From NCBI GenBank assembly GCA_017506865.1, contig JAFCMP010000040.1, positions 310,001 through 374,000 on the forward strand: a DNA stretch of 64,000 bases. The letters run 5' to 3'. Source of the stretch: Tribonema minus (Eukaryota > Sar > Xanthophyceae > Tribonematales > Tribonemataceae). Made by a program: the position numbers and the translations under genes. The notes beneath the pieces were generated by a model. The model saw nothing but the letters and a program-made list of their open reading frames with translations, was not told the DNA's origin and made no database searches. Within the stretch, counting starts at the first letter, position 1; each line of letters begins with the position of its first letter. Positions 6,958 to 51,408 of the stretch are shown piece by piece.

Positions 6958-9900
6958 TTATTTGAGACGTGGCGCACATGAATTTGCAGCAGCAGGTGCA
7001 GTGGCCGCAGACTGCTTCCTGAATACCTGCGGTGCCAGCTCAGTCAGCCATGCCGGGTCAACTGCGGTGACACATTTCATGTACTGCTTTGATGTCTGCA
7101 ACACCTCTGCATACACAAGACATCGGGGCGGTGGGTTTTTGCCAAACAGGCAGCTGGTGGGGTGCAGGTAGACCTCTTTGCCACCCCTGACAGTCCTGTA
7201 ACAGCGGGCACTGCTCTGACCGCCGACTGCCACGGAAACAGCGGGCTGTCTGACAGCTACCTGCAGGGAGAGGCCCTTCGCTATGCAGCGCAGCAGCCTT
7301 TGCACTTCTGCACCGCAAGAGCTCTCGGGATCTCCACCAAGCCGCCTGAGTATAGTGGCCAGCTGTGAGCGGATGTCAAGCGCACGTGCTAGGCTCCGTG
7401 CGTTCAGGTAGTGCTGCTTGCACCAGACGCCGCCCTGCCCCTTGTGCATGTTAGCTTTGTAAGCCTCAAAAATCCCTGCCAAGCACGGCAAATCGCCGTC
7501 TGCAGACGCGAATGCTCTATGTGAAGCTGTCGCGCACGCCCTTTCCTCCTGATCCGTTGGCGTGAAGAACACATTGTCAGCTGACAGACAGCTCACTGCT
7601 GCAAGCACCTCCGCGGTGCACTCAAAAGCTGGCTCTGCGCTAGCCAGCAGCAAGTGGGAAAAGGTTGGGGCTAGGGGCAGCTGAGCAATGCGCCGCCCAT
7701 GGGGGGTGAGATCCCCAGCTGCATCCAGGGTGCCCAGCAAGTAGAGGGACTCCAGAGCAGCGATGAGGGCTGTGGGGGAGGGGGGGCTCACAAAGTCAAA
7801 TTGGTCTACCTTGTCGATGCCAATGACCTTGAGCTGAAGCACCACCTGAGACAAGTCTACGCGCTCAATCTCCGGTGGCGTGGATTGCGCAAGTGCCAGG
7901 AAGGTGGACTCTGTGTAGATGCGGTAGCATGCACCAGGGGCTTCACGGCCGGCGCGGCCTGCTCGTTGCTGTGCTTGGGATTTGCTCACTGGTACCACCT
8001 GAGATGCAATATTGGAGAAAACAAAGTGGCTATGCGTCGACATCATCCCATTTATGTATGCGAGCACAAAGAATGAGTAGTCTGTACATACATTTACGCG
8101 ATGAAAGCCTCAGTGGTTGCATGCACCAGATGTATGCACATGTAGATGCAGATGCACATGGTCATATCTTGTGACTCAACTCATACTATTGATAGGAACA
8201 AATCTGACATCCTGTGACACAATCGCCATCATGACAAATCTGAACTTGCAAGCGCAGTTCACCATATCCGCAAACATACATCTGCAGTTATCAACGCCTG
8301 ACTTGTCTGTCTGATTGATGGATGGAATGAAGAATTTGAGTGAGTGCAGATTATTGCCAAATCAACAACAGCACGCGAGCAATAGGCATTGCTCGCAGCA
8401 GAGCGGTCCCGCTTGATTGAAAAGAGTTTTATGTAAGCAGGTAAAAACTGGCAAGGCCTCTCCAGTGGACATCAAGAAAACATTTCAGTGACATGTGCCA
8501 CTGCAATTAGTGAGGTCACTTGCAAGCTAGGGCTATCAAGTCCACACTGAAGCTGAGATGATCATTGATAACGTCCAAGGTAGAACACTGTCATCCAGCA
8601 GAACGCACAAGTGAATCAATACTTAATTAAGTATGATTCTACATAGTAGATGTGAGCATGTGCTGAAGTCAGCATCATGCTTTTGTAATACTCTCAGAGT
8701 ACTATTGTTGGAACTGCACACATGCCCTGAGACTAATACTGTCGAACTGCACATTCAGCAGTTCATGGCCATGATCCACGCCTGACATGTCGGAGGTGAA
8801 CATGTTTGTGGTGGTGCCTGACTGTCATGACTGCATGCCGATGGTCATCTCAGTGTTGCTCTGAGGGTACAGAAACAGCATGTCCATGGCCACCTTCACG
8901 GATGGTTGGCAGGTGTGCCTCACTGTCATCACCATGTCACTCCATCTGGTCTCGACAATGCAAGTGAAACATTAACAGCACCAAACCATGCAGCTAATGG
9001 TCAGCAAATTGCTGATCGTCATCATCAACTTCAGTGAAAGTGCAAGCACAGTCATTAGTGTCTCACCTTGAGAGCTTCCATGCCTGCGCCTGCTACAACC
9101 GAGCGCTGCTTGACCAGGCCACAGTCTATGACATAACGCACGCCGCTGATGGTGATGGACGTCTCTGCAATGTTGGTGGCCAGCACAAACTTGCGCGTGT
9201 TGGGCGGCGCAGGTGTAAACGCCAGCAGCTGCTGTTCCTGAGGCAGCGCAGCAAAGACCTTCACCACCAGACCCTCCTGAAGCTGCGCCGCTGCCGCTGA
9301 AGGTGTTTCCGCTACTACTGCACCTACAGCTGCTGCCTCCTGCAGTGCCTCCCTGTGCAGCTTTGCCAGCCAGTCCCTCAGAAGCAGTGCCAAGTTGTCA
9401 ATGTCCTCCCTGCCTGGCAGGAACACCAGAACATCTCCTGGAGCCTCTTCTGCATGGATCTGCAAACACAGCGCACGGGAAGAAGCCTGAGAATACAGCA
9501 AATCCCAACTTGATGCATTACGAGTAACAAGTAATCGTGAGCTGCAAGTTGTCACTCCGTTCCTTACATACAAGCATCCAGCATGGAAGTCGCGCTGCTT
9601 CTACACCTGTGGGAAGCCAGCTGTGGCCATCATGACATCTCTTGCCTGCAGCTTGGTGCACCTCCGGGAGCGATGGTCAATTAGATGGACTTGAATATAC
9701 ATATGCGAATATACTCAAGCAGCAGGCAGCACAGCAGAAGTACTGCTGTCGTAGCATGCTTGTTCACACCAAAGTGCTGTTCGGTGCACCACGAATCTCG
9801 TGGCGGCTGCTAGTAGCAGTACATGGCATTGTTGTTAATGGCTGCCAACACCACGAAACCATGGAGTTTCCCTATCTGACCGTCAATAAGCTGCATCAAC

Positions 9901-10912
9901 CTGCTCTCGCACTGCCACAAGTCAAAGGCATCCGTCACACTTGTGACTGTCCTGTGCATTAGTCCGAGGTGCCCATCATTCTTGCGCGAGGACATCGTCA
10001 CCAGCAGCCACCATTGCCACTTGGAAGTCATTCTTGATCACCACAAATAACACAGTGTACGCAACTGAACAGTCGCCGTTTTGTATCCAGCACAAATTGC
10101 CCTTTGCATGTTGCATTGCAACATCATGTCCCATCGTGCCACAAGCTCACCTGTAAGCATGTCATCAACGCCGCATCAACATAGTCTGGCTGTGATTCTT
10201 CGGCATAATACACCTGCACCGGGTGTGTCCGCCCCGGTATACGAAGCTGCGCCGCATCCTTGAAGAACGCCGTGAACAAGCCCACGTCCAGAGTTGCCGA
10301 CATGACGATAACCCTGAGGTCATTTGGCCGCTTGTCTTGCAGTTTGCGTACCAGACCAAAGAGTATATCCGTCTGCAAGCTGCGCTCGTGAGCTTCATCC
10401 AGGATCAGCACGCTGTACGACTTGAGCATTGGATCTGCCATTGCCTCGCGAAGCAGCACGCCATCTGTGACGTACTTGACTCGCGTAGAGGGGCTCGTCT
10501 GATCGTCGAATCTGACGCTGTAGCCACATGTGTGGCCGAGTTCGCTGCCCATTTCTTCTGCCACGCGCTTTGCAACCGTGATGGCAGCCACTCTCCTCGG
10601 CTGGGTGCAGCATATGGTCCGGGGGCTGAGAGTCCCATTGCCGCTGCTGCCTTTATGCTTGCTGGCCAGGCCCGCGTCATAGAGGTACTGAGGTATCTGA
10701 GTGCTCTTTCCCGAGCCTGTCTCTCCAACCAACACGACTGTCCTGTGTGTCTTGACGGCCGTGACTATGTTGTCTCTATGCTGAAAGACAGGTAGTTGTC
10801 GCCTCACTTCCTGGTGCTGTCGAGGCAAACGCGGGGATGGCCGAGCTTTCTTGGTATGACGGAGACCGTTTGCAACCGCATCGGCGTCGCCCTCCGCTCG
10901 ACGGCGCTTCAT
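6958..10912 (-). CDS. DHX33: DEAH-box RNA helicase, DHX33-like
   Basis: Three exons (10912-10151, 9459-9067, 7998-6958) join in phase 0 to give 731 residues, close to the length I recall for DHX33 (about 700). Helicase motifs are all visible: GETGSGKST (about residues 63-71), TQPRRVAA, TDGVLLRE, DEAH (172-175), SAT (about 205), then TNIAETSIT and QRAGRAGR (396-403). HA2 and OB-fold regions follow (LLGTLDAAGDLTPHGRR; YLHPTSCLFGKNPP; VYAEVLQTSKQYMKCVTAVDP). The N-terminus has short basic patches (MKRRR, HTKKARP) that could be a nuclear or nucleolar signal. The family uses NTP hydrolysis to remodel RNA; DHX33 acts in rRNA synthesis and translation initiation. DHX40 or another DEAH member is the alternative, but the short N-terminus and C-terminal wording favour DHX33. 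All catalytic residues are present. Confidence 0.85.
8068..9066 (-). other. long intron of the helicase gene
   Basis: Most of the second intron (9066-7999). It is AT-richer than the exons. I see no second gene or structured element in it. Confidence 0.5.
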
Positions 10913-11056
10913 GGCTGTGTGTCACCTCGAACAACTCCGGAACAACTCCGGAAGTTTGACTTGAAGTTTGGTAATTTTTTTGTGTGAATAAAGACAAGTC
11001 GCCATGAGGTGGTGATACCGCCGACTATTGCTATTCTCAGCCCGGAAGGCTCGCTC
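10913..11056. promoter_or_regulatory. short divergent promoter region (helicase / RING gene)
   Basis: Only 144 bp separate the two start codons (96 bp if the RING protein starts at the upstream Met, 11009). Both promoters and 5' UTRs must lie here or overlap the genes. An imperfect direct repeat is visible at 10930-10955 (GAACAACTCCGGAACAACTCCGG in outline: two copies of AACAACTCCGG). No TATA box is obvious. Confidence 0.5.
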
Positions 11057-12813
11057 ATGGACGCACATATGGACGACGCTCGGTCAGAGCGCGGGCCAAG
11101 TGAGGAGAGGCACAGGCGTGATCACACCAACCAGGACGATATCACGGAGGTGAGAGAGATGCCCCCATCAGTGGGCTTGTCTGTGCAGCTGTCTCATTCG
11201 CGTAGTATCAAAGAAACTCAACTTTCTTGAGTCCCGGTCGTTTCTCAGAGGTTATCTCTTCCGCCTCTCTTTCGGCCGAGCGATAAGAGGATCACATGGC
11301 ACTGTGTGACTTCAGATATGGCATATTGCTGCATGGGGCTCCCCCACAGCTCATGCCTCAGTCCTGGCGAAGCATTGAAAGTGACGTCGTGTTTGGTCAT
11401 AGCATTTTGGCTCCAAGTAGACAACATTGGAGCTCCAATGTGCACCTTCCGATACATCCTTAAAAGGGAGGATGGTCAGCATACGCTAACCTCATCAGGC
11501 TCCTGATATCCTCTTGAGCATCTGTTGACTCTTGTGTGATTAGCTCATACAATTCATGAACATGTCCTTGGATCGTGTGAAATTTTACGACAACTTCCGA
11601 GAGGGATGCGACAGCTGCAAGCACTTCCCAGCATCCCTAGCTGAGCGAGTTCTTGTGGTGTTGAAAGACTGAAGCTTGTGAGTTGAGCTCACAAGCGTCA
11701 TCAGGGTTCGCCACTGAAAGCATATCACCCTAGTAGCTTCTGCTAACACTTTCTGCAAGACTGAAACCTTCTTTTGCACAGATGACTGGACTGACATGCA
11801 CAGTAACCATCCTGTCGATATACTTCATGAAGTACATAAAATGCAAGTTTGAAACTGACAAATGTACGTTGCCTTCTGACATGCTACGCCAGGTGCAGCA
11901 AGTGCCACCGCTGCCATTGCCGCCTCCGCCCGCACAGCATCCTGGGCGGCGCAGGCCAGCAACAAGCTACTGCACAGTATGGAATGTGATGATGTCGGTA
12001 CTAGCTCTCTTCTTCTGCTACATCATTCTCAACAGCTGGGTACAGTCATTCATCAGCGGGGATTTCAGGGGCCTCGCCATCAGCGTGTGCCTGCTTCTGC
12101 TGGCTAGCTTTGCGTGCTGGAAAAGCCGCAAAGTCTTTCTGCGCCGTGCCGCTTTGCGGGCTGCTTTGGCCAATGAGTTGAACTCAGGTGGTGATCAGCG
12201 CGCCGCCATGGGCATACCGGTTTCCGTGCGCAAATCCTATGAGGTCTTCAAGTATGAAGCACCCCTTCACCATGAGTCAAGTGCCCTGTCCGGTGCCGGT
12301 GCAACACAAGGTGGCGATTATGTTGAGGCGGGGTGCACCGCGCCCATGTACACCATAGGTGGGGTTGGGGTCGTCTCAGGTGTGCCTGTCACACCAGTGT
12401 CACCAGGTGAACATCAGTTGCATGCCTCAGCGGCAGCTCGCACAGCAGGGGGAGTCAGCGGACGCCTACATGACGCTAAAGCGCGACTGGGTGATAGCGG
12501 TACACAAGATGTGGAGCTGGGAGTCACTACCAGTACTGCTGTTGCTACCAGCGAGCTCCAGTGCGTAATTTGTCTGGGCGACTACACAACGGGAGAGTCA
12601 CTCTGCCGGCTTCCCTGCCCCTTTCAGCACGTGTATCATGTTGAGTGCATAAATCTCTGGTTGGATGGGCACTCAACATGCCCCTACTGCAAGTATGACC
12701 TGATGCTGGCAGCTGAAGAGGAGCAATCGCCGTCTGCAACGGCAATGCCACCTCGGGCTATTGCGACATCAGCAGGTAGCAACGCAGAGCCGACTTACTG
12801 GCCTGCTGTATGA
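11057..12813 (+). CDS. membrane RING-H2 E3 ubiquitin ligase
   Basis: Exon 1 (11057-11149, starting MDAHMDDARSERG, or in frame from 11009) ends at an ACGGAG/GTGAGA donor. Exon 2 (11893-12813) begins after CCAG and stays in frame to TGA. The protein is 337 residues. It has a proline-rich stretch (about 35-45), two likely membrane segments (about 60-80 and 91-107), a variable linker, and a C-terminal RING-H2 finger from about residue 255: CVIC, then C-x3-C-x3-H-x2-H-x2-C, then CPYC. This layout fits ATL- or RNF-type membrane ubiquitin ligases, which pass ubiquitin from an E2 to a substrate. The finger shows all eight metal ligands. Substrate and membrane are unknown. A plain ORF from 11782 also exists, but its first 37 codons are better read as intron, because the upstream exon is acidic, protein-like and in phase. 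Confidence 0.75.
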
Positions 12814-21807: not shown

Positions 21808-22170
21808 GTGCCAAGCGCCATATTGCAATGCGCTGCACGCGGTCAGCGCTGCCTGTGCAGCAACATCCTATGTGCTGGGGAGCCAGCGCTAGAATAAGCT
21901 CGCAGCTTCCTGGGTGTTCCCAGAGGGAGAGGCAACTGAGCCCCAGCGCGCTGATTCGTGAACGGTTGGCATGGTGCGCATGTACGCATACCCCGAACCC
22001 CATATTTGGGCCAGCCTGGCCCAAATATCTCGTGGGCCAGGTAGGCCACGTCATCCGCTGAGAACTGCGCTGCTGCCGCACCCGAAGAGACACTCATTGT
22101 GCCCAGCAAAGCGCCCTGGTGGCGTACGACAGCTACTACACCAGCAGAGCGTTGGCGGATAGGGCGAGGC
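21808..22170. repeat. dispersed repeat, copy A, with a 27-bp palindrome
   Basis: Two parts are repeated elsewhere. Bases 21994-22170 match the reverse complement of 31021-31212 almost base for base (a few single-base differences and one small insertion in copy B). Bases 21808-21960 match the reverse complement of about 63118-63240. At 22002-22028 lies a perfect palindrome with 13-base arms (ATATTTGGGCCAG and its complement) around one base; copy B has it too. On the - strand the shared part can encode SADDVAYLAHEIFGPGWPKY, so it may derive from a gene fragment. Confidence 0.8.
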
Positions 22171-24689
22171 TTGTAGAGCTTGATACACTGACAACTTTTG
22201 AGGCCTTGGCGACCGCCACAGCTCTCCAGGTGCGGCGTCACGCGAAATGCACCTCTCCCTGCGCCAACTGTCGTTGCCGCACTACTGCTTGTCTGTGTGT
22301 TCACGTTGGACAAGTTGCTTGTGCACCATTGAGTGAAGCACACAGCACCAAGCAACGCATCAAGTTACGTGCATTCATAAGTATGCGCTTTGATCCTGCG
22401 TGAGCACAAAACGTATTCGCTTTTGCTGAATTCAGTTCCTGTTGTGGCGCCACAGATCCTGAGATGGAACAGCTCCAGGAGCTGGCAGCGCCTTCGTTAC
22501 AGACTGCTGCGGTCCACAACGTGACAGACGCTGAGGTACGTGTCTGGTTCCTCTGTTAAGGAGTGTATATACCTGCCTGTAATGCAATACTTGCCTTCAT
22601 CTGTACAGCATCCCTGCCTGATAGCTTTGCTATTTTCTGCCTCGCCATTTTCAGGTCTGTGCTGACCTCAACAGCAGGCTGTTTGCAACCCGGCAGCATG
22701 CCATCGATGCGGTGCAGACGTATGCTGCCAGTGCTGGCTTCAAGGTATACTGCAAGAGCAAACAACGCAGCCCTCCTCTGTTCTGGATTATCTGCCATTG
22801 TGCTGGCAAACCGCCTCGCAAGCGCTCAGAGACGCACCCAGAAGCGCAGCGTTGTGCAGTCGCAAGCACATGCATCAAGTGCGAGTGCCAGTGGCTTGTA
22901 AAGCTCAGACAACAGTCAGTGTCAAAGGAGCAGCACACAGCACCAGATGAGAACTCATGCCAGAATGCCAGCCAGGAGCCACCATGGGTAATTTCCCAAC
23001 TCACATCATTCCACGACGGCCACAATCACGCGCTGAGTGCCATGACTGAACCGGTGGCGCCACCTGGTAATACAGGTCGCATCATCACCAGGGAAGACCT
23101 CACGGATGACATCATCCAGAACGTCAGGAACTGGAGTGCCGCACCAACTATGAGTGGCAGGGTGCTTCAGCAGACTGTCGTGACTCATCATTTTCGGTGG
23201 TGACTTCACAGCGGTTTTTGATCAATCAGCTCTCGCCCTGCTGAACAACACAAAATCTGACGTCAGAGCACGCATTGCGTTCACCAAGGGTGATAGCAAA
23301 GAGTTCATCGCAGCGCTCTGCGAGGTGAAGGCCAACGGAGGATACGCATCATACGACCTTCAGGAGGACTGCACGTTCAGGCGCGCTTTTTGGGCTACTC
23401 AGGAGCAGGTCGAGCGCGCTATGGAATTTGGCCTAGATGTAATCCAACAGGTATGCTGCTGTTACTGCACCGGTGATGCTTCCATGGCTGCTGCACTCAA
23501 CTCATGCAGCATCATGACGTACCTAGTCTCAAGGCAGTATACTTTGTCCCTCTTGCCACCCCATGGTCTGAATATTTTGACGATGTACTGTATGTAATTG
23601 CCAGTGCGCTGCAATTGACTGGTGTCACCGTGTCATTGTCATCGCTTACTACTTGATCAGCAGCTGCCTCTGGAAAACCCAGCACCAATGCGGTCACAGT
23701 GTGCATACTGAAACTCATATTTGCCCAAATGATTTGGCTCAGCTACATTCGCACACCATGATGGAGGTGGTCATCAACGGCTCATAGGAAATTATCGCTG
23801 TATGACGAAATGACAACACATCATGTTCCGCTCAACTTCTATGCTTTTGTGCCGCCTGTGCAGGACTGCACTTTTGGCACCACCAAGTATGGCCTGCCAC
23901 TGAGCGTGATCGTTGGCGTGAACGGCGAGAGCAAGTGAGCAGTATGTGATAATGCTGAATGCATGCCGTCACCAAACTACGGTGATTGACATGGCAGTCA
24001 GCGATACTGTATAGCTGCCAAATGCTGATGGACTACACTGCTTTTTCACTGTTCTTAACAATTGACTGCATGTTGCTGAGCAATGCATTCATTTTCTCAC
24101 TGCGACTCATTGCGGCGCTCTTGGTGTACAGGACACGACTCTTCTGCCAGGCAGTCTTGGACAAGGAGGACACAGAGGCATTCACGTGGTTCTTTGACCA
24201 CTACGTGAAAATGGTGAACGGCAAGCACCCTCGTGTGTGCTTCACAGACAGGTGTGCGAATTATGGTGGGGATGTCAATGATATCATTGTCAGTGTGCCC
24301 AGTAGCCCGCCTTGCGCACAGCCGTCTCACATGCGCATGCAACATCTGCTTTTCACCTCCATTGCAGGGATTTTGCTGCGGAAGCTGCCATGGGGCTTTC
24401 CTGGCCAGGAACAGTGCACCTCATCTGCGAGTGGCACTTCATCAAGAATGTGAAGGAGAAGCTCAAGGGGAAGCTGGGCGATTCAACATGGCAGGCAAGT
24501 GCAAAATTTGCTTGCCCGCTTGACTTGATGTTGCATTACTGCATAGCTGGGGCATAATTTTAATTTCACGTAGGCATTGCAACATGGGCTCATAATATTC
24601 ATTTCCCCGTCTTTGACTGCGTGGGAGGGGTTATTCTTCTACATTCTGCTGAGAACCGTGTGACGAATGGCAAACGTTCAACTTGAAGG

Positions 24690-24955
24690 TGAAGTTGCCA
24701 ATCCGGAAGTGATGCACGCATTGAAGTGTTTCACCTTGGTGAACGTGACGTAGGGAAATACGTTGAAAACTACGCTCATGCTATCTGTATGTAAAATAAC
24801 ATACTCAAATGTATGGCAAATGTTTACTCTGAAGTTGCCAATCCGGAATGGTGATGCGCGCATTGAAGTATTTGACTTGGTGAACGTGGCGTAGAGAATT
24901 TTTTTGCAAACTGCGCGCATGCTATCTGTATGTTAAATATCATACTCAAATGTTT
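24690..24955. repeat. tandem duplication inside a transposase intron
   Basis: Two diverged copies of about 140 bp: 24690-24829 and 24830-24955. Each begins TGAAGTTGCCAATCCGGAA and ends with CATGCTATCTGTATGT followed by CATACTCAAATG. Confidence 0.85.
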
Positions 24956-27350
24956 TAAATGTGATAGCGTGAATGAACCTGACATCCACGGCTCTAAATT
25001 GCTGCCAGCGGTAGTACCATCAACAGCATTGGGTTGGAGCGTGCTGCAAAACAGAAAGCCATCATGGACACATTGCAATGCTATGGAGGCTCATTCACTC
25101 ATGCATGTTTGGTCCACACCAAGCAGACCGCTGCAGCAGCAATTCACAGAACCCAATATGGCAATGGCCATTCAAGTAACACGCATGTTGCGATATTGCC
25201 AGCGCAATATCATCGGTCTAATAACATGTCACAAAATGAATGTGCGTGTGGATCCACCATCATGATTGTCCTTTGCTGCTGTGCCACGATAATGTACAAA
25301 ATAGTATTTTATGCACCCATGCAGGCCTTATCTTTGCATCTGCCGCACTGGCTGATACACCTTCAATGCTGCAGTGTTCATCAACTTGAAGTTCACTTAC
25401 ACCTCAATGCCATTGGCAGGTCTTCAAGAAGTGTCTGCATCGAGCATCCAGGGCACCCACGGAGGTTTGCTTTGAGCGCGCCTGGACCGCACTTCACCGT
25501 GCACTTGCGAGTGCTGACAAAGCCGATGCCGATGTTGTCAAGTACCTGAACACGACCATCTACCCCATACGGCAGCGGTGGGCATTCTACTTCCGCATCG
25601 GCGTCCTCACCTTGGGGATCAACTCTACCCAGCGGTGTGAGGGATATTTCGCCAAGATCAAATCTGAGCTTCACAAGCTCAGCACCCTCTGCGTCCTTAA
25701 GACCACCATTGACCGCATCACCAGCAGATACAGCGCCGAAGACCAGCTCTACAACAAGGCCACAAATCGGGCATATGGCGTAGCGCTCAAAGGCGTGGAT
25801 GCAGCGCTTTGCAACATCTATCAGCCGCTTCTGGACGTCGCTCAGCAGGACGGGACGCTGCACTGCTTCACGTGTCTCGTTCAGGAAGTTGGAGCTGCTG
25901 CGCGCTATCATGTTGAGCTGGCGAGGCAGGATCACTGCGACACCTCAGGTACATGCAAACAGGAGTTGTACAATTACCAAGAATTGATGTTCAGCAGCTT
26001 GTTTTTGCTTCAAAAAGTTCCAATTGAGTTTCTGTTCAAGTAGGTAACATTAACTCCTAACTTCAACATCAACGGTTCGGGTCATTAGGCTAGCTAGAAA
26101 GTTTTTCACTTCAATAGTGGCAGTCTCGCAACCTCATTGCATACAAGGAGCAGCGTGTCCAGAGCGGCTTGAGCGCATATATCGACCCCAGTGATCATCA
26201 CCACATCAGTGCTCAATTAGATTGCTATGCTTTTTGTGTGTGGTCAAACGAAAGGCTGCACAACGCAAAATTTGTTGGTGTCAGCGACCAGCTTAGCAAC
26301 TACTTTAGGCATGTGTTACATGTGTGGTCATCTGTGATATCATCACATTTACATTGGCCGTACTTCTGACACTGTCGTTCAAAACTAATTTTACCGGCAG
26401 GCAACAGCAGCATCCTTGCTGCTGAATAGACACCAAGTGACGACTATCGCACAAAGTGGTGAAAGTGGAGCAAGCACAACGGGTTACTGTGTTCCACTTC
26501 ACATTGACTAAGCATGATGGCATGTGCTCTTTGCTTGCAGAGTGGCCGTGGAGGCTGAGCCCGATGCAGCACTGGACGAGAATGATCATCACAGAGCAAG
26601 CATCAGCATGCTGCAAGCCATCGCAGACAACTACACAGCGTTTGGCGCACAGGAATGGTTTTCTGTAGCTTCCACTCTTGGCCGCTCGAGCCATTCTGTG
26701 GTGATAACTGCCTCAGGAGCTGCGCTGTGCACTTGCCTGGAGACTATGCGGACAGGCATGCTGTGCCGCCATGTCCTCGCGTGCTTGCCGCGAGTGACAG
26801 TTTTGCCTGGTGAAGGGGGCAACGGAAGTGGTGAGGAGGAGGGGCAGCGCAGCGGCGGCGCGGACGATGGCAGCAGCAGCGGCGAGGAAGATGAGCAATG
26901 CAGCAGCGGCGCGGAGGAGCGGCAGCGCAGCAGCAGCAGCGGCGGCAGCAGAACAGCAGCATCCGGCGCAGCGGCAGCCACAGGCGGTGCTACTCAACTT
27001 CAAGCGTACACTACGCATGATGTATCACTGCGCATGATGGTGGGAGAGAGTCTTGGAGTTGAGCTCGGCTTCACGGACAACACGGTCACAGTGCTCAGCT
27101 TCACTCGCAACAAATCAACAGGGGCTCTGCTGCCAGCGGAGGAGAGCCGGCGCATTCATGTAGGTGACTCTGTCACCGCAATTGATGGGCGCAGGCTTCA
27201 AGGGCTCATGGCGGCGGACGCAAAGCTGGTGCTCAGCAGCGCACGCAAAGCAAGCCCCAGCACAAACATCTTGACTGTGTGCTCGCGACGGACTTCGACA
27301 CCGGCGCTGGCGGCATCAGAGGTGCGAGCTGCTGCGGCGCCGCCTGCCAT

Positions 27351-27760
27351 TGGGCGCACCATGGACGCGGCGCCGGCGACAGCAGCGCTGGCAGTAGCGG
27401 CGGCAGCGCCGCTTGTGCGCAGCATGTACGCAGTGCCGGCGACAGCGGCGGCGGCAGCAGCGGCGGCAGCGCTGGCGACAGCGGCAGCGGCAGCAGCGGC
27501 AGCAGCGCCGCTTGTGCGCAGCTTGGACGCAGCGCCGGCAACAGCGGCGGCAGCAGCAGCGGCGGCAGCGCCGGCGACAGCGGCAGCGGCAGCAGCGCCG
27601 CTTGTGCGCAGCTTGGGCGCAGCGCCGGCGACAGCAGCGGCGGCAGCGCCGGCGACAGCGGCAGCGGCAGCAGCGGCAGCAGCGCCGCTTGTGCGCAGCA
27701 TGGACGCAGCGCCGGTGACAGCGGCGCCGCCGACAGCACCAGCGACGGCGGCGGCGGCAG
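27351..27760 (+). repeat. Ala-rich coding tandem repeat in the transposase tail
   Basis: Four units start with CCGCTTGTGCGCAGC at 27409, 27508, 27598 and 27685, with a diverged unit before them at about 27351. Each encodes PLVRS(L/M)xAAPATA followed by an alanine run of varying length. Unit length varies (about 87-99 bp), as expected from slippage. The - strand shows a long Ala/Ser ORF across the same bases, which is an artefact of the GC-rich repeat. Confidence 0.85.
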
Positions 27761-28892
27761 CATCAGCGACTGCGGCAAGCCCAGTGACGACCACGGCGAC
27801 TGTCGCACAATGCTCACGCGTGCAGCGCTCAGCTGCAGAGTGTATCTTCCGCAACACGCACTCGAGGTGGCTCCACCCCTCCCGTATGAAGGCGGCAGCC
27901 TGCATTCTCACTGGTGAAGGTAAAGAGATAGTACTAGCAAAAGTGGTGGCGCTTGCTGCAAGGCAATTTGCAGCTGCCGCATCTGGTGTCGGGGCTGCAG
28001 CATGCGATGACTGGGATGCAATGGGGGTGGATGAGCCTCAGCAGCTGAGCGTTGACATAGCGCATGCCCAAATCTGGGGACTTGCCAAGAATCTCATTGC
28101 GGATGTTAAGTCATTGCCACCTCAGGAGGCGGTGGAACTGATGAAGTACCTTAGCCAAGTAGCACGTGATAGAGTAGCAGGCAATGTCCATGACCCACTC
28201 ATCAGGCAGAGGCGTACACAGAAAGTATTGGGGAAACGGGCACGGGGCAGCACAGCTGGCCCCAGTAAGAAGAAGAAAACCTAAACGCTTGCATGTGCAA
28301 TATATTCCTTGCATTGGCATTCCATCTCTGATGCATTCATCTTTCTTGCAAGATTGTGTTTTTGCCCTTGTGATGATCATGCATGATCTGAACTGTCTTG
28401 CAGACAGCTTTGTCAATGCTGCGCTCGGCTTTTTCCATCAAATGCATGGGTGTGCATGTGATAGGAATATGAGCTCGCTCTGCAAATGTGTGCGTGCACA
28501 CATTTTACACTCTCATTGGAGACCTCTGAGGCATTCGTATACATGCATGTAGCATGTAGTGGTTCACGTCAGCTGTTTGGGACGTTGCACGCCAAAGCAC
28601 AGGTGATGATTGTGTCAAGATTTAGGGTAAGGTTGTGTGGATGGATGCTGGCGCAACAAGACCACATGCATGCTCAATAATCCAGCAGCCACAATCAAAT
28701 GGGCAGCAATGTGCGATCATTCAATTTGATGCTTGTCCAATGTGCGATGGGAGCACACACACCCGTGTACCAGCACCCATGTTGGCCATTTGCATTGATT
28801 CATGTACATTGCAAAGCGAAACACGCAAGTTCATGATGTTTGCGTGATACATATATATATCGCCAACCTTTCGAGTTTCAAATGAAGCAACC

Positions 28893-29024
28893 AACAGGAA
28901 GGTGTGCAGCATGCACAAGAAATCTAATGTGCAAGCATGATGCATCAAGCGTCAACAGGGAAGGTATGATCATGCACAAGAAACCTCACGTGTAAGCATC
29001 ATGATCATGCATCAGGCGTCAACA
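28893..29024. repeat. two-copy tandem repeat, about 60-70 bp
   Basis: Copies at 28893-28957 and 28953-29024. Both read CAACAGG(G)AAGGT, then CATGCACAAGAAA, then AAGCAT, and end GCATCA(A/G)GCGTCAACAG. The copies differ by substitutions and a small insertion. Confidence 0.75.
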
Positions 29025-29116
29025 GTCAAAAGAGCCTCCAAGACAGAGTCACACGTGGATGACGAAACATGTTGGACAACTATACTTCATAGTATAGCGT
29101 AGGTGTTGGTAGTAAA

Positions 29117-29312
29117 GCCTCGAACATTTATTAAACGTCGCCACAGCCAGAGCTGACGTGCCACCATTTACCAAGGCATGCTCACAATTGTTGAAAGCGT
29201 CCAGCATGCTACGCGCCTCGAACATTTATTGAATGTCGCCACAGCCAGAGCTGACGTGCCACCATTTACCAAGGCATGCTCACAATTGTTGAAAGCGTCC
29301 AGCATGCTACGC
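29117..29312. repeat. 98-bp tandem duplication
   Basis: Units 29117-29214 and 29215-29312 differ at only about two positions (TTAAACG versus TTGAATG). The high identity implies a recent duplication. On the - strand each unit can encode SMLDAFNNCEHALVNGGTSA, which may be a gene fragment. Confidence 0.9.
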
Positions 29313-29554
29313 GCTTCCATCTGCAACTGACGCAGCTGAGGGTGCATCACGAGCCAAGCTGCTCATGATGCACCCGTCGGACAAAACCTGCTGCGGCATG
29401 CCCCTCATGCACATTGCTATGTGCTGCACACAGCCAGATCGCTGGTGGGAGTCACAACAGCTGCGCTAGTGTTGCGCAGCTTTGGAACACCTGCTGCTGA
29501 AGTGTCTGGCAGCTGCGTGCCATCGCCACGCCCGTCCGCGCTTGATTACATCAA

Positions 29555-29962
29555 GTGAGCAGCACCTTGTGCCGTGCCAGGCGCTGCTGCTCCTCAGGCG
29601 TATGCGCCCCCGCCTCTTCTGCTGCCGTCGAGAGCACCCGCCTCCCCGGCCCGCCTGCTCGACGCCAGGAGTTCCTGGAGGCGCAGACGCTGACGCCGGC
29701 GCAGATGCGCGAGCCGCGCACGAGCGCCGCCATCGCGCACCAGGTCGCCGCGCTGCACGGCGCTGCGCTCGCCGGGCCTCGACGCCACGCCGCAGCTGTG
29801 GCGTATGCTGCGGCGTTGGCATGCGCTCGCGTGCGGCGGCGGCGGCAGCGCGCCGCACGCCGCCGACGCCGACGCCTTTCAGACATGGCGCTGCTCGGCG
29901 AGTGCGTAGAGGAGCTGGAGCGACGCACCGCGCTCGCTGCACTGGCGCCGCTGCCTTCGTAG
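29555..29962 (+). pseudogene. GC-rich patch with a choline/ethanolamine-kinase-like fragment
   Basis: The + frame ending at a TAG (29960-29962) has third codon positions almost all G or C over about 100 codons, unlike its surroundings. Residues RQEFLEAQTLTPAQMREP, then SAAIAHQVAALHGAAL, look like the segment of choline/ethanolamine kinases (EeFi..r.Lt..em, then iA..la.lHg) that follows the nucleotide-binding lobe. What follows is Arg/Ala-rich and not kinase-like, and the catalytic HNDxxxxN motif is absent. I read it as a fragment or decayed copy, possibly transferred given its composition. The opposite strand also has a 239-codon ORF, a shadow of the GC bias. Confidence 0.35.
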
Positions 29963-31020
29963 CACGTATCGCCGGTACCGCCATGCGATACAAGTGCCAT
30001 AAAAGCATTATGCTGTGCACGCGGCTGAACCGCAACGGCTGTTATGCACACTCCCATCGCGTGCGCGCACCGCCGCCACTGCTGGCGCTGAGACCATGAA
30101 GGCGGTGTCGCTGCTGCCGACTCATGCGCGCCTGAAAGCGCCGCCACATTAAGCGTTGAGAGCACGGCTGAGCTGCTGCTGTTGTCGCGCACGTCCCTGT
30201 CGTCCCTCTCGCACAGCGCGCTGAAAATGCGGCTGCAGTGCGTCGTTGGCAGGTGCATCGCCGCATGCATGCGTGCATACAGGCACCGGCGCTGTCAGGG
30301 GTTGGTATTCAGATGGCTTCAGAAATGAAGGCGCCATGCGTTCAGGCGTGGGCAAAGGACGCCACTGAGTTTTCCAGGCAGTCGTAATCTAACACTGCAT
30401 GGCACGAGGAAATTGTTCAACGGCTAGATACTTGAGGCACATCAAACTAGCATGGGGGGCGGTAGCAAAGTATTTTGGCGGTTTCTTGGTAGTAAGCCCG
30501 AACTAGTTTCTGCACCAGTATACAATGTTGAGTGCTTCACCTTCAACTGCCAACAAGATGCTCAATGAATCACATCACACGCAGGATAAGCGCCATCATG
30601 ATGCTTATGGAAGCGTCCTGCAGCAGTCGCCATTAAGGAATTAGAGGCCCCAAGCCACCCAAAGCCCATACATTTTCAATGATGTAAGAAAAACGAGTGT
30701 TGTTATAAGTTAAAACCTTATGGTCATGTAGCAAGAAGACACGCTAAAGGTAGAAACAACATCAGTAGAAAAGCGAAAGACCAACGATTGAAGTTTGTAA
30801 AACTCCCGTGCTGCCCTCGACTCCTCGGCTGTTAGCGAAAGCTGGCGCCCTGCACCGTACTTGCGTCTGAGGCAACTGTGATAAACAAGACTTGCTCCAG
30901 GCTCGCACAGGCGATACAGACCGACATGCAAGGCAACGCCATGATGCACGGGAAGGATACGCAACTGGAGAGCTGCAGCGACTGCCAGGCATCACCTGAT
31001 GACTCCAACGTGCTCTGTAG

Positions 31021-31212
31021 GCCTCGCCCCATCCGCCAACGCTCTGCTGGTGCAACAGCTGGTGTAGTAGCTGTCGTACGCCACCAGGGGCGCTTTGCTG
31101 GGGCACAATGAGTGGCTCTTCGGGGTGCGGCAGCAGCGCAGTTCTCAGCGGATGACGTGGCCTACCTGGCCCACGAGATATTTGGGCCAGGCTGGCCCAA
31201 ATATGGGGTTCG
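31021..31212. repeat. dispersed repeat, copy B (inverted relative to copy A)
   Basis: Reverse complement of 21994-22170, very similar, with an extra 12-13 bp partial duplication (GTGCAACAGCTG) and a few indels. The 27-bp palindrome is at 31178-31204. Copies A and B flank the transposase island as an inverted pair about 9 kb apart. Confidence 0.85.
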
Positions 31213-31663
31213 ACGCATACCCGCCACCGCAAAAAACACCAAGCGCCCAGATGCATCAGCAGTGTGGAGAGCCGCGCGCGCTACGTGATTCCAGTAGGCT
31301 TGCGCCTTGAAGAGTCCATCGCCTATAAAAGCACCAAAAACACTCTTTGATCGGGCCCCACTTGGCGCATCACCTGCACATGACGCGGCTCAAGTCACTC
31401 GCCAGATCCACCTCCATCGCTGGGCGCCCATATATGTATAGTGTGGGTTCCCGACATTGCACCAGCCCTGAGAAGAACACTCTCTGATGCAGCCCCCCCG
31501 CATCTATGGCATTGGTTGACATTGAGAGCGTGGTGTTGTTTGTTTACAAATGCAATTGGTGTGGTGATCGCACGGTGTTGGCCAGGCAAATATGTTCACG
31601 CAGCATACAGAAACGTGACATCAACCAAAAAAATGTTGACGTGAAGCACGTGCGCTCGTTTTC

Positions 31664-46615: not shown

Positions 46616-49600
46616 TTATGTCTGGCCTGGTGCGTAGAGCTGCATGTGTGCCAGCGGCACCATACTGGGCCTGCCATGCGCACACTGAAATGGCAGGCGG
46701 CACTGTGAGAGACCATGCACAAGCTCGCAGCACTGCTCCTGACTCAACAGGTCACCGAAGCGGATCGCACCATGGCATGCCTTGTACTTGAGGATGTGGT
46801 GTATAGTAGAGGGGATCACACCGCGCACCGGAGCGGCATTGGTGCCATATGATCCACACTGCCGCACCATCTCTAACAGATCCGTTCTTGACAGCTGCAC
46901 GCCACAAACCACAGGTACGTGGGTCACTGATACCCGCAGTAGTGACCCCAACTCGGGCAGCTGTTGCTGCTGCTGCTGCGACGACACCTGTATGCTAAAT
47001 CCCCAGGCATGCAGATGTGCCATGTTGCGCTCTATCAAGTCTGCATCGCTCGAAGTCACATCCATCAGCCAAGCACCAGCCAGTGCGCGCTGCTGTAGAG
47101 CACTGCCGTCGCTTGCGTTGAATGCACTGGTGGTACTGTCGCTGCTGGCACCGTTGCTGCAATTGTCACCATGGCTGGGGCAGAGCGCTTTCTCCAGTGC
47201 CTCCAGGCGTATGCGCTCATGAACAGCATGCTGATCGGCGCACATGAGCAGATCCCCACTGCGCAGCACAATGTACTTCCTGCAAAGGCAGCACAATCAT
47301 TGGCGGTCAGACATTGCTGTAATTGAACAGGGGGACAACGTGAACTCGGGTGTATGTCCTGTCACAATAGCAGATATCACAAAATCTGAGTGACTGCCCG
47401 AAGCTCTACTAGTAGTGGCTGCTGCGCTTGCACAGCCCCATGATCGGTGTACACATTTACAGATATACATTACTTCTACAACAACTTTCAACGGTACGCA
47501 TGTCTGTGACTACCTGCAACAAGATGCCGAAGGAGGAACTATCATGAAATACGACATGAAGTGCAACTGTCAAAATACTTCTGAGATAACGTTCCTCATT
47601 GTCCTCCTGGACAGACTTTTATATACTTGGTGATAGACATGACAAGGGCAGAGCGGTCATCATGGTAGCACTAAGCTAATATCTCCCATGTACTTTGGCG
47701 TTCATAAGCTATGGCCCATGGGGTAGCGCACCAAGCACCGGAAATAAGACTCTTAGGCTGATGTCCTGCACATGTTCGCCTTCGAAACAGTTGCACATTC
47801 ATTGCGGGGTCAACGATATGCTGGTTAGTGCCGTTTGCTGGTCAACTCTAAGATAACAACCTAATCTTGATGTAGACTGCGAGTTTAGCATTTTCGCGTT
47901 ATTTACATGCTGTACACACTCGGTCAAAATACGAAGTACACAATGTGTATGGCATATATACCCATGATGATGTCACAAAACTACAACCAGTCGGCAGGAC
48001 ACGGAGTCATACCCGACTCAAACAATGTATTCTGCGCTGACGTGAGTAGCATTGCTTCTGAGACAACAGTACAGTACGTTTGCTGAACCAGCTATACAGT
48101 GCAAGTCTACTGTAGCCCAGGTTAGAGTGATATGCCCATTTTGAGCCATAGTCTAGTGATTGTGCTATGGTGTCATGGTGCAATGCAGTTGTGACATGCG
48201 CAGTGTGTTTGTGAATCATGGCAAAATATCAGCGAGGAGCCCTTGCTGCCTGTTGGAATGCACACATTTGCTACACAAAAGTAATAGTCTAGTAGGTACT
48301 GCTGAGTACATGCGCATTGTGATATCACTCCACTTCTATTTTGAGGTATCTTTTGGCAGGGTTAAATGATTTGCTGCATCACAAACTCTATGCATTTTCA
48401 GCTTTCATTGACAACAAGGTTGACGATAACATTTGATGCTACAAGCATTGATGCTTGTTGTTCCACTCACCGATCCAGCTGGCATATGACTTGAGCACCT
48501 CGCAGGTCCACGTTGGTGAGTGCTTCATGACTGATGGCTGCCTGTGGCAGTGAGCACATGGCCACGTGGTCAGATGGACACCTGCGCTGCTCCTCCTCCA
48601 TAGAGTCCTCCTCGCCGGGCGCAGTGCCTCCGTTGTGGTGACCTGGTGCATCAGCAACAGCGTGACCCCCCTGTCGCTCTTGCTCCGTTGGCACTTGCTT
48701 ATATGTGCTGTCCTCAGGCTCTGCTACCAGCTGCCGGCTATCCTCCACTACCAGCCGCCGACTGGCCTCAGCTGAATTTGCTGCTGCTGTCTGCTGCGGT
48801 CCATCCTGTGTGCCTGTGCCGCTGCACTGTTCACTCTGTGACTCCAGGAGCGCATCGCCTGAACTGCCACTGATAGCACCAACTGCAGGCACTAGCAGAA
48901 CTGCAGCGCCGCCCTCGCCCCCCTGGCTGCCGTCCCACTCCTCCGTGCTCTCCGCTGCATGTGCACCGCCATCACTCTCCACGATTTGCATAGCGTCGCC
49001 TGTAGTGAGATCGGCAGACGCAGGCCTGCTCTCTCCACCACTCTGTATCCCCCATTCGGTGTGCAGTGCTGGCGACGGCAGTGGTGAGAGTGGTGAAAGC
49101 GGTGGCGGCAATGTCTGCCAGGCAGCGGTGTCGCTGCAAACATTCACCGCCGCCGACTGCTCTGGTGATGCTGATGAATGGATCATGGCGCCGCTGCTAG
49201 CCCCGCTGTGCAATGAGGCCATGTCAGGTGAACGGGGCCTGACCACACGTACACGCACCGTGCTCGTCAGCGTCACTGGCTGCTGCTGCTGAGGGGAAGG
49301 GCTGTGTTGCAGGTCGCGCAGGTTGAAGTTGAAGTTTTCCATACCGTCAGCCCCCCCCTCATGGAATTTGCCACCATGAAATGGCATGTACATGCCCCTG
49401 CTCCGATCCCCTGTATATGTGTTCGTGTTGTGACTGTTGAACTCCGCCTCCTCTCCAGCTGAGCTTCCTGCTGCTCTAGTATGGCTGTGTTGCGTACCGC
49501 CTGTATTGTAGTCATCGAGATGAGAGGCACTGCTGAAGTCATCCCCGCACCATGGCTGCACGCATTGGCGGTCGGCAAAATGATAGTCGTCCTTGGGCAG

Positions 49601-51217
49601 TGGCACACTCATGACCTCCTCATCAGCTTCATAGTGATTGGTGGGGGAGCTGATGCCTCCAGGCCAGCTGCCACCGCCGCTGCCATTATGATCACTAACC
49701 AGTGGCACCATCGAAGCACCAACTGGTGGCGCGAGCTCGGCAAGTTGATGGATGTGTGGAGGGGTTTCGTGCTGCCCACACCAAGCATCCACAACAGCTG
49801 TGCCCACGTTGCCAGTCATTTCCAACCTGCTGTTCTCCGCCCTAGGAGGATGGCCGTTGTCGTAATGGCTGCCTGCCGGATCAGATGACACATGCTGGAT
49901 GCTGCTGCTGTGAGTGAAGAATGGCAACGTCATGCCAGCGCTTGTGAGAAGTGTGGCATCGAGTAGTGGCTGCGACCCCTGAAGGCGTGCACGCTTCCAC
50001 GACCATGTGTTGGCATCCTCTCTAGTGTAGAGTGTGCCAAGGAATGTCCGCGCTTTCGCCTGCCTGCCTGGATCGTTGGCGCTCTCGATGGTGCGGTGAT
50101 GCGCGCGGAGGCTTCGCAATACCCCGTCCGGTACTGCATGACCAAACCCCCCCAGGAAAGTAAGCAGCATGTGTGCAATACAGCTGTGCGCTGATGAGCG
50201 AGCGCGAAGCTGCTGCTGCGTCTGGAGCTGGTCCTGGCGTGCACCGTCAACGCTGTGAGCACCTTCATCGGCGCGCTCCATGTGCAGCACGTACATGGGA
50301 AACACCGAGCACCGCAGCCCAGAACTCTCATCCTTGCTGGTTGCCTTGCGTCGCTGCAGCAGCTGGAAGCACTTGAGGTATGCATCGTTGATCAGAGAGT
50401 GAAGCTCCTCTGTGTCTGCTAGTGCCATGCCAGCGCTGCATGTGATGAACTGCCACTCCTGGCTATGGTGACTGCATGTTGAGGAGGGAGGCGAGAGGTA
50501 GCCATAGCACAAGCACCCCCCAAACTCGCACTCCACCACCTCCATTTTGGCGAAGACTTCAACACCACAAACCTGTTTGACAACGTCCTCCTCGCGGGGT
50601 TGCGGCGTTTTCCTGACCAGCTCTCGCCCCTCGCCGCTGCCACTCGCATCCACCAACGACAAGCTCAGCTGAGGGTTTTCGAGGGCAACTCTGCGAGCCA
50701 CAGCGACAGTTTTGGCACGCTGAAGATCTCGGCTGCTGACACTCAGGCTACGTCGTACAGGCGACCGGTTGAAGATGTCGCGCACTTCCACTACGGTGCC
50801 AGTCGCTGGCATTGCTGACTCCGTAAACTGCACCTGCTGCCCTGATTGCACCACCTTTGCAAAGGCTTGCGACTCGCCGGTTGCCTGGCTGCGAATGTCA
50901 AGGGTACACGATGTGCCTATCATGACCAAGGAGTCGCCGCTCCGAGGTGTGCACTTCGACGAGGCTCGCTCCGTCCCGACCAATAACTCCAAATCCTGCG
51001 GTCGGATGCCGCAACCATTGTCGCTGACGCGAAGCGACTCTCCAGGAATATCCACAGTTGCTGTAATATCAGTTGCGCAGGCCTCCAAGGAGTTGGTGAT
51101 GAGCATCTGCAGGATTGTGGTGAAAGATGCCACCTCGCTTGACGATCGCACGCTGGATCCAGCATCGGGGCTCAGCCTCCGGATGGCGGGCGCTGGTCGA
51201 GCCCTTGTGGGTCCCAT
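46616..51217 (-). CDS. MLH3: DNA mismatch-repair / meiotic protein MLH3
   Basis: Two exons (51217-48471, 47279-46616) join in phase (GAT CG/GTGAGT with TTTGCAG/G) to give 1136 residues. The N-terminal GHKL region has LITNSLEACATDI (42-50) and SDNGCGI (65-71); a long disordered Ser/Gly/His-rich linker follows. The C-terminal domain begins VICQLDRKYIVLRSGDL and contains DQHAVHERIRLEALE, the DQHA-x2-E-x4-E metal-binding endonuclease motif, then KACHGAIRFGD and FQCAHGRPS, the other conserved blocks of MLH3/PMS2-type nucleases. MLH3 pairs with MLH1, nicks DNA in mismatch repair and makes crossovers in meiosis. Odd points: the residue where the catalytic Glu should precede NS appears to be Met (MLITNS), and GFRGEAL is replaced by something like PRSGDSL. 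PMS2 is an alternative, but the linker and tail fit MLH3 better. Confidence 0.85.
47280..48470 (-). other. intron of MLH3
   Basis: The only intron (1191 bp), sitting just before the endonuclease motif exon. No second gene or repeat seen. Confidence 0.7.
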
Positions 51218-51408
51218 TGACGCGACAGCACCACCACACTCAACTCATTCTACTCCCCACAGCTCTGCACACAACTTCCGCGAAGAAGAGTTCAAAAGTT
51301 TCTGTTGACTCGAAAGCGCTTATTAGGGGCCCATGTTAGGGGCCCATGCGGCAACAGCTTTTTTTTCTCAGACCAAGCTGTTGTTTGCGTCGACGGAGGA
51401 GGCGGAGG
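51218..51408. promoter_or_regulatory. short divergent promoter region (MLH3 / Rab1)
   Basis: 191 bp between start codons. It contains GGGGCCCATG twice (about 51327 and 51339, direct repeats) and a T-run at 51359-51366. These could be promoter elements; I cannot show that. Confidence 0.5.

Follow-up and report, generated by a model that had tools for sequence, protein, structure and literature searches.

Whether a Mutator-like (MULE) transposase can carry a PDZ domain, a module whose usual task is docking to partner proteins, is the question raised by one exon in the DNA analyzed here, a 64,000-nucleotide stretch of the Tribonema minus genome (hereafter, the window). A sequence-only reading of the window had described this exon as a MULE/FAR1 transposase fused to a PDZ-like domain, by which the transposase could be tethered to a host protein or to itself. 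In our analysis, it is very probable that the transposase of a MULE lineage carries the PDZ domain as a fixed and selected part, not as a chance resemblance or a fresh fusion in one copy; the most likely role of this domain is docking on a host protein.

The transposon and its predicted transposase gene

The exon is located inside a complete Mutator-like DNA transposon of 9219 bp (Table 1). Mutator-like target duplications are usually 8–11 bp in length. A search of the genome (158 Mb, 554 contigs) with the DNA of the exon gave 45 matches, 17 of which, the window included, were 98–100% identical over almost the whole exon. Perfect 10-bp duplications were observed in 14 of the 20 copies examined, representing 13 distinct sites; the remaining six consisted of two copies with imperfect duplications, one uninformative copy (poly-C), and three for which both ends were not found. 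The transposon of the window is a recently active, long, Mutator-like element. The first bases of the 5' repeat divided the copies into two subfamilies (L009–L012 and L014 versus L015–L026). L016, L019, and L024 had the same flank on three contigs and therefore represent one insertion on three contigs; the assembly thus seems to contain haplotype or duplicated contigs.

Two tandem duplications were also seen within the element, at 29117–29314 (98-bp unit, 98% matches) and 24690–24953 (141-bp unit, 86%). Outside the element, Pfam matches in the window indicated host genes at 6958–8109 and 10124–10921 (−), 11737–12813 (+), and 48467–51244 (−), comprising pieces of a DEAD/DEAH-type helicase, a RING-finger protein, and a protein with an HATPase match just below the cut-off. 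In the whole genome, the light-harvesting family had 92 matches, and the one compared was most similar to fucoxanthin chlorophyll a/c proteins; on this one gene, the host is probably a chlorophyll a/c-type alga.

Table 1 Features of the transposon in the window. Positions are counted from the first base of the window.
Feature	Position	Strand	Remark
Complete Mutator-like DNA transposon	21994..31212	+	perfect inverted-repeat ends; boundaries common to copies elsewhere in the genome
Left 10-bp target-site duplication, ACGCATACCC	21984..21993
5' terminal inverted repeat, 90 nt, first bases CGAACCCCATATTTGGGCC	21994..22083	+	100% complementary to 31123–31212
Predicted exon 1, start codon to GT donor	22464..22535	+	read by eye
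Predicted FAR1-like DNA-binding exon	22655..23450	+	FAR1 E 0.11
Predicted exon, putative first catalytic Asp, DCTFGTTKYGLPL	23864..23934	+	by eye
Predicted exon, putative second catalytic Asp (..VCFTD)	24132..24251	+	MULE PF10551 match on ORF 23986–24453
Predicted exon, CxxH of MULE core (ICEWHFIKN)	24368..24494	+	PF10551 E 0.0089
Exon with putative catalytic Glu (NSTQRCEGYF)	25420..25947	+	3' splice junction unsettled
Last exon: SWIM finger, PDZ, Ala-rich linker, C-terminal region, stop	26541..28284	+
SWIM zinc-finger motif, CTCLETMRTGMLCRH	26728..26772	+	motif in 8/8 ORFs tested
Predicted PDZ domain core	27019..27279	+
Ala-rich repetitive linker	27316..27810	+
Conserved C-terminal region, basic tail (..GPSKKKKT)	27820..28281	+
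3' terminal inverted repeat, 90 nt	31123..31212	−
Right 10-bp target-site duplication, ACGCATACCC	31213..31222

The exon model was built by eye together with splice signals. The D, D, and E motifs of a candidate DDE triad were read by eye in the exons starting at 23864, 24132, and 25420. The last exon lies in an open frame of 588 aa (26518–28284, +), with a plausible acceptor (..ttgcag) directly before its start. The MULE domain profile PF10551 matched separate frames of the window at E 7.5e-5 (23.5 bits) and E 0.0089 (16.9 bits), against a cut-off of 27.6 bits; genome-wide, 13 of 90 rows exceeded the cut-off, all 13 only when neighbours in frame were included. The FAR1 profile PF03101 on the N-terminal exon stayed below its cut-off (13.6 versus 28.1 bits). 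The FAR1 half of the earlier label is the weaker one. In part of the FAR1-like exon, the length of the window copy differs from that of 13 of the 17 other aligned copies, and its frame is therefore probably broken there. As for the SWIM finger, the CxC..CxH motif occurred in every ORF tested; the profile PF04434 gave sub-cut-off matches in two of the seven non-host ORFs (E 0.021 and 0.061) and no listed match in the other five or in the window ORF. From these features we infer one spliced protein, with a predicted layout in which a FAR1-like region precedes the DDE catalytic core and is followed further on by the SWIM finger, then the PDZ, and finally the C-terminal region.

Identity of the stretch behind the SWIM finger

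The strings on which the PDZ-like assignment had been based (SLGVELGF, NTVTVLSF, RIHVGDSVTAIDGRRLQG, and ILTVC) were all present in the frame 26518–28284, in which, as had been described, the PDZ-like stretch comes after the SWIM motif within one uninterrupted exon. PDZ was the sole kind of Pfam match at E ≤ 10 on this frame, at a sub-threshold score (E 0.034, 15.0 bits versus a cut-off of 23.2; PDZ_2 E 0.19). This PDZ identity, weak on the window copy, was borne out by relatives scoring over the cut-off and by profile matches in the PDB, as follows.

Used as a tblastn query, the 105-aa PDZ stretch had 69 matches across this genome; the lowest identity was 41%, and 65 of the matches were stop-free. 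Eighteen matches, including the window, were 95–100% identical, one copy was matched in two pieces, two matches were at 74 and 80%, 24 at 51–52%, and 23, among them a host place (C531) described below, at 41–49%. The curated PDZ cut-off was reached by four of the seven non-host ORFs scanned (L030, PDZ_6 27.6 with a cut-off of 27; L033, PDZ 24.2; L035, PDZ 24.0; and L034, PDZ 23.2, which equals the cut-off). In a six-frame search of the genome, 51 of the 85 listed PDZ matches exceeded the Pfam cut-off, corresponding to 41 transposon copies of this lineage and 10 other places (the Rav1-like locus included). The close family of the window was absent from these 41, except for a relative on C92 that just passed (23.3 bits); its copies listed in the search scored 18.3–18.8 bits against 23.2. 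Genome-wide and per-ORF scores differ, as illustrated by the high-copy family at 23.8 bits and its member L029 at 19.8. The match of the high-copy family was nearly full-length, covering profile positions 2–74 of 81.

Furthermore, when a profile of seven transposon PDZ rows was compared with the PDB, all 26 sequences matched at E ≤ 0.01 were PDZ proteins. The best match was 2iwn (E 2.2e-7, profile positions 4–80 of 94), and 2yt7 and 6gbd were also matched over almost the whole domain. With the window sequence alone, the best PDB match was at E 0.0081, and the top 24 of the 30 matches at E ≤ 10 were PDZ entries. An alignment of nine rows (seven from transposons, one from a fragment to which no transposase match belongs, and one from the host) showed a conspicuous LG[VL] loop and a GD..AIDG core; all seven transposon rows have kept LG[VL], which forms the core of the carboxylate loop. 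Taken together, these comparisons across several transposon families support the assignment of the stretch as a PDZ domain. A pattern-and-tblastn search of prokaryote genomes found 256 stretches with the core pattern of the PDZ profile, and one was confirmed by tblastn, an ordinary bacterial PDZ in a gammaproteobacterial assembly (PDZ_2 E 2e-15; an HtrA-like protease by eye). The same approach on viral contigs revealed no relative of either the PDZ profile or the catalytic exon.

Linkage to the transposase, selection, and alternative explanations

In the window and in other families, the SWIM finger, the PDZ, and the C-terminal region share one open frame, and the C-terminal region follows the PDZ in frame, for example in the 430-aa frames of the high-copy family. 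We counted 68 PDZ loci (69 rows minus the second piece of a copy on C504) and 68 Glu-exon loci (90 rows minus 22 second pieces of loci already counted). The Glu exon was located 1054–2934 bases upstream at 65 of the 68 PDZ loci, and conversely a PDZ was located downstream at 65 of the 68 Glu-exon loci, so the PDZ belongs with the exon set of the transposase, as the earlier reading had it. A MULE-profile match on the same strand within 7 kb upstream was found at 59 PDZ loci, with a chance expectation of approximately 0.1, and a PDZ was found downstream at 59 of 66 MULE-profile loci (90 rows merged). The PDZ loci without the Glu exon were C507, which has a MULE-profile match, a fragment on C290, and the host place C531; the Glu-exon loci without a PDZ were C13:269610, C28, and C529:315747. 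Five MULE-profile loci had no listed Glu-exon or PDZ match. One of them (C158), scoring like the family of the window, may be a remnant, and the other four (C74, C18, C241, and C110) may come from a MULE lineage that lacks the PDZ. With strict text patterns, the SWIM motif and the PDZ core were found in one frame in at least 12 of 20 copies; this is a lower bound because four of the eight failing copies have stop-free PDZ frames (L016 and L021, 616 aa each; L024, 494 aa; L026, 453 aa). Distant (39%) matches to the C-terminal region were also seen at C112:214831–215196 and C112:2060130–2060498, where neither a PDZ match nor a catalytic-exon match was listed in the vicinity; these two loci are possibly relatives without the PDZ.

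Three explanations compete with a selected PDZ in the transposase. Several profile matches were confined to the second half of the domain (e.g., positions 37–73 of 81), which would suit a region peculiar to this lineage whose likeness to PDZ is limited to the GD-x-[VI]-x-AIDG core. Structure prediction likewise gave no support for a PDZ: AlphaFold models of the window PDZ alone and of a two-row alignment with one related locus were of low confidence (mean pLDDT of 52.6 and 50.9, respectively) without a clear PDZ fold, and Foldseek on the first of them returned no match at E ≤ 0.001 and no PDZ among the 50 shown; such models decide nothing in either direction. However, the matches of the high-copy family and those to 2iwn, 2yt7, and 6gbd run over nearly the full domain, and the PDB matches of the profile at E ≤ 0.01 are PDZ proteins throughout; we therefore regard a mere resemblance as very unlikely. 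Mutator elements can also carry a second gene, and the SWIM-PDZ part could be such a gene, in which case the PDZ protein would be an accessory factor instead of the transposase. Phase does not settle how the catalytic exon (25420 onward) is spliced to the SWIM exon across a gap of approximately 590 bases, and the joining of the DDE and SWIM-PDZ exons is a prediction. A SWIM finger normally belongs to a MULE transposase, after the DDE core. Against a separate gene, a single open frame holds both SWIM and PDZ in the window, as it does in the six other ORFs with a frame extending far enough upstream (in a seventh, L027, the PDZ contains a stop), and the order and spacing of the catalytic exon and the PDZ are kept at nearly all loci, as given above. 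An accessory PDZ protein is accordingly improbable.

The third explanation is that the PDZ is a passenger, namely host coding sequence captured by the element and not needed by it. It draws on a related PDZ in or beside a host Rav1-like gene and on the reported capture of host sequence by MULEs (PMC4858842), and it gains from the close copies. When the two closest diverged copies, both damaged, were compared with the window, the few changes gave PDZ dN/dS values of 1.61 and 1.10, whereas the neighbouring parts of the same exon were lower (SWIM, 0.48 and 0.79; first linker, 0.60 and 0.50; and 0.24 for the C-terminal region, which was alignable in one of the two cases). At this depth, the PDZ alone shows no constraint, which counts against its being a selected part. 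Between families, in contrast, the PDZ gave 0.32, 0.18, 0.30, 0.24, 0.34, and 0.23 in six comparisons, next to 0.15–0.34 for SWIM (five comparisons where computable), 0.23–0.30 for the C-terminal region (five comparisons), and 0.39–0.77 for the poorly alignable linkers; all these values are rough because synonymous sites are near saturation in several comparisons. They indicate, roughly, purifying selection on the PDZ between old families. Moreover, at least six diverged groups have the PDZ, and no stop interrupts it in 16 of the 18 rows of the close family or in any of the 22 rows of the high-copy family. There is accordingly little probability that it is a passenger, and we prefer a PDZ that is a selected part of the transposase.

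A related host domain and the possible role of the PDZ

Outside the transposon copies, the best match to the PDZ was C531:364268–364522 (L032 1569–1823), at 44% identity. The best genome matches of this C531 PDZ were in turn the transposon PDZs (41–49% identity), so that the two are reciprocal nearest relatives; the next other place, on C479, matched far more weakly (E 3.9e-4). The C531 PDZ resides in a 791-aa open frame, and the next frame, on the same strand and in the same phase after the stop, matched Rav1p_C at E 1.3e-20. We infer that both frames belong to a single gene related to the V-ATPase regulator Rav1/DMXL; the PDZ thus adjoins a Rav1-like gene and probably lies inside it. Approximately ten degenerate repeats of the type SGELSGDMFGGFDAAPQ were also seen by eye in the Rav1p_C frame. 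With the transposase exon or with the C-terminal region as query, no match was listed at the C531 locus. In a tree of 18 PDZ rows, which took in nine of the twelve places fetched, the C531 PDZ and the transposon PDZs fell in one clade (91/89), and the branch that sets off the transposon rows as a group stood at only 76/84. That the transposon lineage shares its PDZ with the host Rav1-like V-ATPase regulator and has kept it for binding the same host partner is conceivable but rather unlikely; the exchange may also have run in the reverse direction, the host gene having taken its PDZ from the transposon.

The element resembles transposases of the FAR1/MULE/SWIM type in its long perfect terminal inverted repeats, a target duplication in the usual size range, a sub-threshold match to the MULE catalytic domain, the SWIM-type motif, and, weakly, a FAR1-like N-terminus, and differs from them in the PDZ added between the SWIM finger and the C-terminal region. 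In the open-access papers searched, no MULE or Mutator-like transposase with a PDZ was found. The nearest analogue is the PB1 exon of the MUGB (MUSTANG) genes, domesticated MULE genes of flowering plants (PMC3435246). These likewise combine a MULE-type protein with an added protein-interaction domain; this domain is PB1 and not PDZ, is N-terminal and not C-terminal, and belongs to domesticated host genes and not to mobile elements (PMC3435246). The comparisons among copies suggest that the present case is real and more than a single odd fusion, namely a MULE lineage with a PDZ transposase that appears to have been kept over long divergence.

As to function, the ligand of the PDZ would be a short peptide in a host protein, in most cases its C-terminal tail, and this binding would dock the transposase on the host partner for import, targeting, or control of its activity. 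As all seven transposon rows retain the carboxylate-binding loop in their sequence, peptide binding is plausible. Provided that the domain is selected, we judge docking on a host protein to be its most likely role, with somewhat better than even prospects; a folded, peptide-binding PDZ, a host partner, and a benefit to transposition are all presumed here. The profile resembles animal PDZ domains, such as those of MUPP1 (2iwn), X11/Mint, and PTPN13, along most of the domain. Class I ligands are selected by the residue that opens the second PDZ helix, which is His in PSD-95 and in class I PDZ domains. At this position, judged by eye against the PSD-95 pattern, none of the nine rows has His; the transposon rows have Ala, Val, Gln, Thr, or Arg, and the host row has Pro. 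Self-tethering, which the sequence-only reading had also considered, was set aside: PDZ domains prefer hydrophobic C-terminal ends, whereas the five transposase tails that were readable (..KKKKT, ..KKRKT, ..KKPKS, ..KKKKR, and ..KKLR) are basic, which makes self-binding by this route unlikely.

To our knowledge, how Mutator-type transposases engage the host machinery is poorly understood. A selected peptide-docking domain would offer a direct handle on this problem, since the peptide bound by the PDZ would name the host partner. The PDZ also offers a case in which transposon and host gene exchanged a domain, both relatives being found within one genome. If the two were indeed kept for the same host partner, a transposase would have been steered by a stolen adaptor domain in at least six groups and over a long time.
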